Positions 53,755 through 55,319 of a DNA stretch of 64,000 nt are shown here, piece by piece. The stretch spans positions 2,666,001 to 2,730,000 of the forward strand of contig NZ_CP058334.1 of NCBI RefSeq assembly GCF_013391085.1, in the 5' to 3' direction. The notes under the pieces are model-generated. The model was not told where the DNA came from and did not search any database. It saw nothing but the letters and a program-made list of their open reading frames with translations. Numbering within the stretch: position 1 is the stretch's first letter; each line of letters starts with the position of its first letter. Position numbers and translations under genes: made by a program. The DNA is from Natronomonas halophila (lineage in GTDB: Archaea > Halobacteriota > Halobacteria > Halobacteriales > Haloarculaceae).

Positions 53755-54312
53755 ATGAGTCAAGACGTCATTCTCGTCGTTGAGGACGAGCCCGACCTCG
53801 CGGACCTGTACAGCGGCTGGCTCTCGGAGAAATATCCGGTGCGAGTCGCTCACGACGGCTCGGAGGCCATGGAAAAGTTCGACGAGGACGTCGAAATCGT
53901 CCTGCTGGACCGCCAACTCCCGGGCATGGACGGTGACGCCGTCCTCTCGCTTATCCGCGACCGTGACCCCGAGTGTCAGGTCGCGATGGTGACCGCCGTC
54001 GAACCCGACGTCGACGTCGTCGATATGGGTTTCGACGCCTACATCACCAAGCCGATTCGCGAGGACGACATCTTCGAACTCGTCGACCACCTCCTGCACC
54101 GCCGGGTCTACGACGACAACGTGCGCAAACTCTTCGCCGCCCTCTCGAAGCAAATCGCCCTCGAAAACCAGCACGACCCCGAGGAACTGGCCGAGGACCC
54201 CCAATACCAGTACCTGCTGGCTCGCATCGAGAAACTCCGCGACGAGACCTCCGACCTCGCTGAGCAGTTCGACGACGAGAACTTCCAGACGGCGCTGTCC
54301 TCGCTTAAATAG
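53755..54312 (+). CDS. Response regulator with HalX domain
   Basis: A 185-aa protein: receiver domain with VVEDEPDLADLY (acidic pocket), phospho-Asp D52 (VLLDRQLPGMDG), T80 and K99 (ITKPIRED), followed by the HalX domain, a haloarchaeal C-terminal helical module (DDNVRKLFAALSKQIALENQ, YLLARIEKLRDETSDLAEQF). HalX has no classical DNA-binding motif, and its role is not established. No kinase gene is adjacent; the two kinases in the window (37702-39504; 60617-62146) are possible partners only by vicinity. Confidence 0.93.
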   Translation: MSQDVILVVEDEPDLADLYSGWLSEKYPVRVAHDGSEAMEKFDEDVEIVLLDRQLPGMDGDAVLSLIRDRDPECQVAMVTAVEPDVDVVDMGFDAYITKPIREDDIFELVDHLLHRRVYDDNVRKLFAALSKQIALENQHDPEELAEDPQYQYLLARIEKLRDETSDLAEQFDDENFQTALSSLK

Positions 54313-54686
54313 TTAAATCTGCTCTCGACGAGACTTGATGTGAACTGTCCGCTGAGGACTGCTTATTGATTGGGCCTCCCTTTCAGCATCCGCCGAGCGG
54401 GGCGCTTGAAAAGCGCCCCCAAGGCGGTTTGCTCAAAAGAGCGCGACGCGCTCTTTTGGCATGACGAAAGGCGCGAAGCGCCTTTCGAACCACCCGGCGA
54501 CGAGCGAAGCGAGTCGCCGTAGCGCGCACGGAATGACGCGCCCGGAGGGCGCGGAAAGAGTACGCGCGCATATTTTCCCCATGTTTTTGCCGCGGAGGCG
54601 GGTTCGGCGCCTTGCGCGCCGAACCGCCGGAGCGTGCAAAAAGTGGTAGCGCAACGCTTTTCGAGTATCGCTCCTCAGCCGTCGCT
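54313..54686. other. Non-coding gap holding a hairpin cluster
   Basis: 374 bases between the response regulator and rnhB. The first 80 bases are plain; 54399-54625 is filled by six consecutive inverted repeats described separately. No gene is supported; the open frames crossing it only reflect the palindromes. Confidence 0.6.
54399..54625. repeat. Cluster of six perfect or near-perfect hairpins
   Basis: Six inverted repeats in a row: 54399-54419 (9-bp stem, GAA loop), 54434-54458 (11-bp stem, GAC loop), 54465-54487 (10-bp stem, GAA loop), 54495-54519 (7-bp outer stem, a 2x2 GA/GA internal loop, 2-bp inner stem, GAA loop), 54537-54553 (7-bp stem, GGA loop), 54601-54625 (10-bp stem, CTTGC loop). 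Stem sequences differ while loop size and spacing repeat. GCGAAGC, known as an unusually stable DNA mini-hairpin, occurs at 54473-54479 and 54504-54510. Confidence 0.9.
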
Positions 54687-55319
54687 ATGGAATTCGGCGT
54701 CGACGAGGCGGGGAAGGGGCCCGCTCTGGGGTCGATGTTCGCTGCAGCCGTTCGGGCACCGCGGGCGGCGCTTCCGGACGGCATCGACGACTCGAAGCGG
54801 TTGTCCGACGCCAAACGCGAGTCGCTGGCCGAGCGGATTCGCGAGGACGACCGCATCGACGTCGGCATCGCCGAAATCACGCCGGCCCGTATCGACGCGG
54901 GCAACATGAACGAGTTGACCGTCGCCGCCCACGCGGAGGCGCTGTCGGGCGTCGTCCGTGCCGGCGACATGGGCGTCTGTGATGCCGGCGATGTCGATGC
55001 CGACCGTTTCGCCGAACGGGTCGAGAGTCGCCTCGCAGTCGACGCGACGGTGACCGCCGAACACGGCGCCGACGCAGCGGACGAACTGGTCGGCGCCGCC
55101 AGCATCGTCGCCAAGAGCGCCCGCGAGGCCCACGTTGCCGACTTGCAAACGGAGTTCGGCGACGTGGGCAGCGGCTATCCGAGCGACCCGACGACTCGCG
55201 GCTTTCTCGCGGGTTACGTCGACGCCAACGGGGAGTTGCCCTCGTGTGCGCGTGCGTCGTGGTCGACCTGTGAGGACGTGCTGGCAGCAGCGGAGCAGTC
55301 CGGCCTCGACGACTTTTAA
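54687..55319 (+). CDS. rnhB: Ribonuclease HII
   Basis: A 210-aa enzyme that cuts the RNA strand of RNA-DNA hybrids. The first catalytic Asp-Glu is in EFGVDEAGKGPALGS (2-16), then DDSKRLSDAKR, ITPARIDAGNMNELT, a middle Asp region, and AASIVAKSAREAHV with YPSDPTTRGFL near the C-terminus. ATG 54687 starts directly before the first strand; the longer frame upstream runs through the hairpin cluster and is rejected. Whether transcription begins within or after the hairpin cluster is unclear. Confidence 0.93.
   Translation: MEFGVDEAGKGPALGSMFAAAVRAPRAALPDGIDDSKRLSDAKRESLAERIREDDRIDVGIAEITPARIDAGNMNELTVAAHAEALSGVVRAGDMGVCDAGDVDADRFAERVESRLAVDATVTAEHGADAADELVGAASIVAKSAREAHVADLQTEFGDVGSGYPSDPTTRGFLAGYVDANGELPSCARASWSTCEDVLAAAEQSGLDDF

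Follow-up and report, generated by a model that had tools for sequence, protein, structure and literature searches.

The window analysed here is a stretch of 64,000 nucleotides from a Natronomonas genome (3.21 Mb, single contig), in which a row of hairpins lies between two genes of the + strand. The upstream gene (53755–54312) encodes a HalX response regulator, with the Pfam domains Response_reg and HalX, and the downstream gene (54687–55319) is rnhB, encoding ribonuclease HII (Pfam RNase_HII); both had been named in an earlier sequence-only reading of this DNA. The six inverted repeats which that reading had described, with stems of 7–11 bp, could all be confirmed in place: hairpin 1 (54399–54419, 9 bp, GAA loop), hairpin 2 (54434–54458, 11 bp, GAC loop), hairpin 3 (54465–54487, 10 bp, GAA loop), hairpin 4 (54495–54519, 7 bp plus a tandem GA/GA plus 2 bp, GAA loop), hairpin 5 (54537–54553, 7 bp, GGA loop) and hairpin 6 (54601–54625, 10 bp, CTTGC loop). 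The 3-nt GAA, GAC or GGA loops reported for nearly all hairpins are found in five of the six, and the tandem GA/GA mismatch reported for one of them is that of hairpin 4. Two further remarks, that the hairpins share form and not sequence and that they include the GCGAAGC DNA mini-hairpin, are likewise correct and provided the key to the family described below. Folding of the region, a check which the same reading had suggested, gives structures far beyond chance as DNA (z = -8.5; 0 of 200 shuffles) as well as RNA (z = -6.1 on the + strand, 0 of 100 shuffles; z = -7.9 on the - strand).

The feature is larger than the six hairpins. Its extent was revised to 54385–54646 on the + strand (AGCATCCGCC...GTGCAAAAAGTGG), starting 72 nt downstream of the response regulator gene, with outer stems under hairpin 1 (CCGCC/GGCGG) and under hairpin 6 (CCAT-G-TTTTTGC/GCAAAAAGTGG). 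Once positions 54430–54492 are removed, it aligns contiguously with dozens of genomic copies, and end to end with copies of about 200 nt elsewhere; the covariance-model match to the window copy (2720489–2720646 in contig numbering) scores 155 bits. The general order of the element is AGCATCC-hp1-GGCGGTT-(optional module)-hp2-TAGCG-P3/hp3-GCATATTTTCMCCA-GTTTTTGCC-hp4-GTGCAAAAAGTGG. In the window copy, hp1 (54390–54427, + strand) consists of the CCGCC/GGCGG stem folded round the variable hairpin 1, and other copies have other stems in the same place. Hairpins 2 and 3 form a single optional module (54430–54492, + strand), TGC-hairpin-GCATGA-hairpin between GGTT and AACC, which is absent from most copies and is found at the same point in others (L082, L090, L113, L114, L116, L227 and L267). 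The hp2 hairpin (54495–54519, + strand) reads CGGCGAC-GA-GCGAAGC-GA-GTCGCCG, that is, two stems round a tandem G.A step with a C(GAA)G loop. It is followed by P3/hp3 (54522–54567, + strand), in which an outer stem GCGCG../..CGCGC and GA-rich steps surround hairpin 5, with covariation in helices 3 and 5. The constant linker GCATATTTTCCCCATGTTTTTGC (54568–54590, + strand), near-invariant in the alignment, contains a T4 and a T5 tract and provides the 5' arm of the terminal stem. The variable tip of the terminal hairpin, hp4 (54592–54633, + strand), includes hairpin 6 and is a different palindrome in nearly every copy, and the gene-proximal 3' end (54634–54646, + strand) is constant, reading GTGCAAAAAGTGG, or CCACTTTTTGCAC on the - strand. 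The lengths of these runs hardly vary: the T tract has exactly five T in 111 of 121 copies, and the A tract exactly five A in 121 of 122.

The six hairpins are almost certainly one copy of a dispersed family of structured multi-hairpin elements, apparently undescribed until now. A search of the window genome with the intergenic DNA of the array returned 62 matching stretches, with more in related genomes, and a covariance model built from 18 copies found 46 strong copies in the window genome together with weaker ones. Many of the weaker matches belong to a sister type with the core TTTTTCATCGAAGTTTTTGC, in which, by eye, the terminal stem CCAC/GTGG is swapped for a different matching pair such as CGAA..TTCG. 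It is present in 27 copies in the window genome, which with about 46 of the main type makes roughly 70 in total. Main and sister copies stand head to head in 8 of the 27 sister cases, compared with about 0.6 expected by chance. The sister copies seen in N. gomsonensis (L260, L268, L254) are docked after stop codons, like the main family.

Among 20 Natronomonas genomes searched at E ≤ 1e-4, the E-values of the model being rough, twelve contain 7–75 copies and eight contain 0–3; leaving aside the window genome, 11 of the other 19 carry the family and 8 have next to none, and the sister type has the same split. One match was found in genome G017. N. pharaonis has been reported to contain 38 IS605-related transposons (PMC3119063). 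Copies docked in the same way are also present in other genera of the taxonomic family; in two genomes of one genus (L185 and L186, genus g6), a thermosome-like (GGM-tail) gene has a single-copy element 2 nt beyond its stop. More widely, 68 of 391 haloarchaeal genomes, from 23 of 86 genera, contain the terminal core TTTTTRC-N18-45-GYAAAAAGTGG; the reversed pattern has 2 matches in total. A phage or plasmid origin was rejected, as neither the 50,697 phage records nor the 72,556 plasmid records searched contain a match. Open-access literature on haloarchaeal intergenic palindromes, Natronomonas repeats and GCGAAGC hairpins describes PATEs and SMRs and not this family, which may already have a name outside that literature.

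At the window locus itself the array is an addition, since the gap between response regulator and rnhB is only 50 nt, with the element absent, in the closest named rnhB relatives (N. gomsonensis and Natronomonas sp. CBA1123, 76% protein identity). A single-copy structured RNA at rnhB is thereby ruled out. The sequence-only reading would have been refuted by absence or scrambling in close relatives with no compensatory changes, by lack of a transcript and by lack of a genomic excess, and the outcome is divided: the element is indeed missing at the locus in relatives, but compensatory changes are strong family-wide and the genome is rich in such clusters. Among its interpretations, a termination region and a structured RNA are still alive, whereas the idea of a remnant of many small palindromic elements is wrong, the array being one composite element with constant linkers, covarying stems and dozens of copies. 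Chance is ruled out by the folding z-scores and the dozens of homologous copies, and a random pile-up of unrelated mini-palindromes by the single alignable scaffold in fixed order.

The structure of the element is kept while its sequence turns over. In the 18-copy alignment, which was built without structure and from which the structure itself was then derived, changes on both sides are seen in 22 of 46 pairs. Paired cells amount to 95.4% (81.5% in shuffles), double-change cells to 101 (38.8 in shuffles) and the covariation score to 0.325 (0.111 in shuffles), values reached by none of 500 shuffles, and the covariation signal collapses when the pairings are slid. The outer arms of hp2 could be analysed independently of this alignment, by excising them through their flanking motifs: 457 of 462 positions are Watson–Crick over 66 copies representing 11 different arm sequences. 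Constant linkers alternate with hypervariable stems which are still complementary.

The copies also share a position relative to genes. At 96 of 126 unique sites, the stop of an open frame of 80 codons or more on the opposite strand lies 0–6 nt from the 3' end of the element, with one more at 10 nt; of random positions in the same genome, 5.9% satisfy an 18-nt window. The fetched loci were the better-scoring copies, and docking was not selected for, since elements were detected by their own sequence only. Some of the remaining 29 sites correspond to misplaced model ends or to reverse-strand matches of the palindrome. Most other non-docked sites precede a co-directional start by about 40–52 nt, a distance which often includes a TATA-like stretch, and at least three (L070, L084, L201) lie between divergent promoters, part of the gene calls at these upstream-docked and divergent sites relying on a home-made hexamer score. 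The window copy is of the upstream-docked kind, 40 nt before the ATG of rnhB, and the gap (54647–54686, + strand) contains the promoter-like TTTTCGAG; other upstream-docked copies are 41–52 nt from the start. In two genomes with 1–3 copies, an element (L195 in G002, L196 in G019) lies 33–48 nt upstream of the same gene, with hp2 and hp4 nearly identical and the P3/hp3 block entirely different.

Sites persist between species while hairpin modules are exchanged. N. gomsonensis and CBA1123 have about 95.6% DNA identity, and at three of the four orthologous sites compared between them flanks and linkers match but hp4, P3/hp3 or hp2 is wholly replaced; the fourth is nearly identical. An acyl-CoA dehydrogenase ortholog (at least 80% identity) is followed by an element 1–5 nt after its stop in six of nine species, with differing hairpins, and by none in three, so that the function of the element is dispensable there; the CBA1123 copy is without part of the core and the N. 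gomsonensis copy is of a related type. Altogether, 18 gene families have a docked element in at least two species, which is far above chance given the few sites. Hairpin modules recur in different combinations, P3/hp3 being swapped as a block between copies. In L148 and L072 this block is inverted relative to other copies, which looks like an in-place flip through the module's own stems. In a genome of another family (L045, G039), the optional module (GCATGACGAAAG...CTTTCGAACCAC) comes directly after a docked CCACTTTTTT core with the rest of the main element missing, which suggests that modules combine freely across families.

Loop composition gave insights into the folded form. Of 363 loops counted over 127 copies, 309 are triloops, 223 of them GNA and only 29 TNC; the GNA loops are closed by C-G in 211 of 223 cases and by G-C in none, and G.A steps account for 221 of 282 in-stem mismatches. 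With this bias in loops and steps, tight folding therefore belongs to the element + strand. When combined with at least two G-C pairs, GNA and GNNA loops form the exceptionally stable DNA mini-hairpins, among which GCGAAGC melts at 78 °C (PMC4686876). G.T represents only 1.5% of pairs in the element and A.C 0.7%. RNA helices usually contain many more G.U pairs. The loop type and the few G.T pairs together suggest that the strand folds as single-stranded DNA more probably than as RNA.

We tentatively prefer the interpretation that the element is a terminator or insulator of gene borders which works in both directions by means of its T5 tracts, and whose hairpins are reshuffled through recombination. 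Because the terminal hairpin CCAC-TTTTT-GC...GC-AAAAA-GTGG carries a T5 tract on both strands, it could serve as a transcription terminator in both directions and as an insulator. The mRNA of the adjacent gene would end a few nt after its stop codon. On the + strand, T tracts follow a GC-rich hairpin: the P3/hp3 hairpin and then ATATTTTC and GTTTTTGC would stop transcripts coming from the other side, and neither an antisense run into the gene nor a run into the next promoter would occur. The window copy would in this way keep the HalX regulator apart from rnhB. As stretches of homology, the constant linkers may allow modules to pass between dispersed copies, whether by gene conversion or by cruciform recombination, and orthologous sites would have different stems because of such swaps. 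In Haloferax volcanii, T stretches serve as the intergenic terminators, and insertion of T5C ends 95% of transcripts in vivo (PMC7237163). At least five T shortly after the stop, as in archaeal T-tract terminators, are found at the stop-docked sites but not at upstream-docked copies such as that of the window. Against a terminator, the need for one is not obvious between the divergent promoters of L070, L084 and L201, and the acyl-CoA dehydrogenase gene does without any element in three of nine species. Moreover, a plain T5 would suffice in archaea, which leaves unexplained the upkeep of at least four hairpins with DNA-type loops.

A bolder proposal, for which confidence is low, goes beyond termination: the family could be a new class of genetic element, made of chromosomal elements that sit at gene borders and are under selection for the shape which a single DNA strand takes on folding. 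C(GNA)G mini-hairpins and tandem G.A steps would be their building blocks, and they would keep a fixed place by stop codons over species divergence, their modules being constantly exchanged by a dedicated machinery kept in some haloarchaeal lineages and lost in others.

Like the PATEs of Haloquadratum or REP/RAYT pairs, the family might instead be a non-autonomous mobile element moving as folded single-stranded DNA, with an HUH (Y1) transposase or another enzyme reading the hairpin shape. Dispersed copies, patchy between species, with palindromes near both ends, nested optional modules and loops of the exceptionally stable GNA/GNNA type (PMC4686876) on one strand only would be expected of it. 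We consider this unlikely, since site persistence across species and stop-codon docking are left unexplained, no consensus target is visible by eye next to the 5' end, and the number of Y1 genes does not track copy number among the 20 Natronomonas genomes, some of which are incomplete. The window genome has one Y1 gene for about 73 copies, no Y1 was found in the incomplete genomes G010, G012 and G014 with 31, 24 and 18 copies, and conversely G007 has five Y1 genes and no copies and G002 four and one copy. This discordance disfavours mobility of the IS200/IS605 type; a route other than Y1 is possible.

A structured RNA, in which the + strand would give rise to a small RNA or to an antisense RNA directed at the 3' end of the docked gene, would agree with the strong covariation, the constant joining segments, a possible three-way junction in the optional module and the RNA folding score (z = -6.1). 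It is nevertheless quite unlikely in view of a G.T frequency (1.5%) close to that of A.C (0.7%), the dominance of triloops (309 of 363) over GNRA or UUCG tetraloops, which are nearly absent, and the lack of a constant promoter upstream of the 5' end, as judged by eye. Rfam gave no match at gathering score, only sub-threshold chance matches, and no tRNA or known RNA family was found. Less probable still, on likeness to REP/BIME or attC sites, is a protein-binding or recombination site whose folded strand would be read by a nucleoid protein, topoisomerase or recombinase: the location at gene 3' ends as for REPs and directly after stops as for attC, the conserved structure with varying sequence, the swapped and flipped modules and the head-to-head pairs (8 of 27 sister copies, about 0.6 expected) point to it, but no linked recombinase or binding protein was identified, and the flanked genes are ordinary chromosomal genes in conserved positions, not cassettes.

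Several known systems share part of these features. Integron attC sites lie directly downstream of stops and are recognised by shape as folded single strands of variable sequence. The likeness is an analogy only, in that both are stop-adjacent, shape-based and sequence-variable; unlike in integrons, no cassette arrays or integron integrase were seen, and the constant ends here are CCACTTTTTGC/GCAAAAAGTGG. The BOX elements of Streptococcus pneumoniae are modular intergenic repeats with optional internal units foldable into stem-loops. Modularity and optional internal units are common to both, but BOX modules have conserved sequences, unlike the stems here, and we know of no stop-codon docking or GNA-loop rule for BOX. 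The REP/BIME repeats of enterobacteria and pseudomonads, associated with RAYT transposases, are likewise dispersed intergenic palindromes, often in opposite-orientation pairs and common at the 3' ends of genes. Their RAYTs are members of the Y1 family. REPs are 20–40 nt long with one conserved palindrome sequence, whereas each copy here has several hypervariable hairpins that share shape and not sequence, and no RAYT-type gene, nor the Y1 family as a whole, tracks the copies; REP/BIME was thus rejected. A MITE was rejected for lack of a terminal inverted repeat, AGCATCC.. and ..AAAAAGTGG not being inverted repeats of each other.

Comparable too are the palindrome-associated transposable elements (PATEs) which Dyall-Smith et al. 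(2011, PMC3119063) described in Haloquadratum walsbyi. They and the present family are haloarchaeal, short, non-coding and multicopy, with palindromes near the ends, and are often invaded by or combined with other small elements. The near-terminal palindromes (hp1 and hp4), the lack of terminal inverted repeats and a length too short for a transposase are as in PATEs. However, PATEs are tied to IS605-type transposon ends and a 4–5 nt target, while the present family does not follow Y1 (TnpA) numbers in the 20 Natronomonas genomes, some incomplete, and is distinguished by stop-codon docking and hypervariable covarying stems. As regards such a target, the 5' flanks show no consensus by eye, and close strains yielded no clean pair of empty and filled sites. 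With the terminators of H. volcanii it shares a T stretch at gene ends; those are unstructured, with a median 3' UTR of 97 nt (PMC7237163), whereas T5 here comes about 4–10 nt after the stop, inside a large modular hairpin element.

If docking and structure-keeping are functional, these elements would represent an unrecognised layer of haloarchaeal gene-border architecture, in which shape alone can preserve short intergenic palindromes whose letters are replaced within species-level divergence. A genome would then also make repeated natural use of d(C-GNA-G), a hairpin of extraordinary stability studied mostly in the test tube. With presence and absence so sharply divided inside a single genus, the factor responsible can be sought by comparing gene content.

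The genome search for clusters of such hairpins, which the sequence-only reading had recommended, revealed many of them. In 400 kb of evenly spaced stretches sampled from the genome, with one Markov replicate as a control, perfect triloop hairpins of at least 7 bp are about twofold in excess and C(GNA)G/C(TNC)G hairpins number 16 versus 3. Palindromes of another kind occupy the gap between response regulator and rnhB in a metagenome-assembled genome (L003, MAG QS_1_69_70), where it is 477 nt long: they follow the pattern (stem)GA-NN-GNA-NN-GA(stem), for example GGCCGACCGCAGGGAGGCC on the - strand, and such motifs may be general in haloarchaeal gaps.
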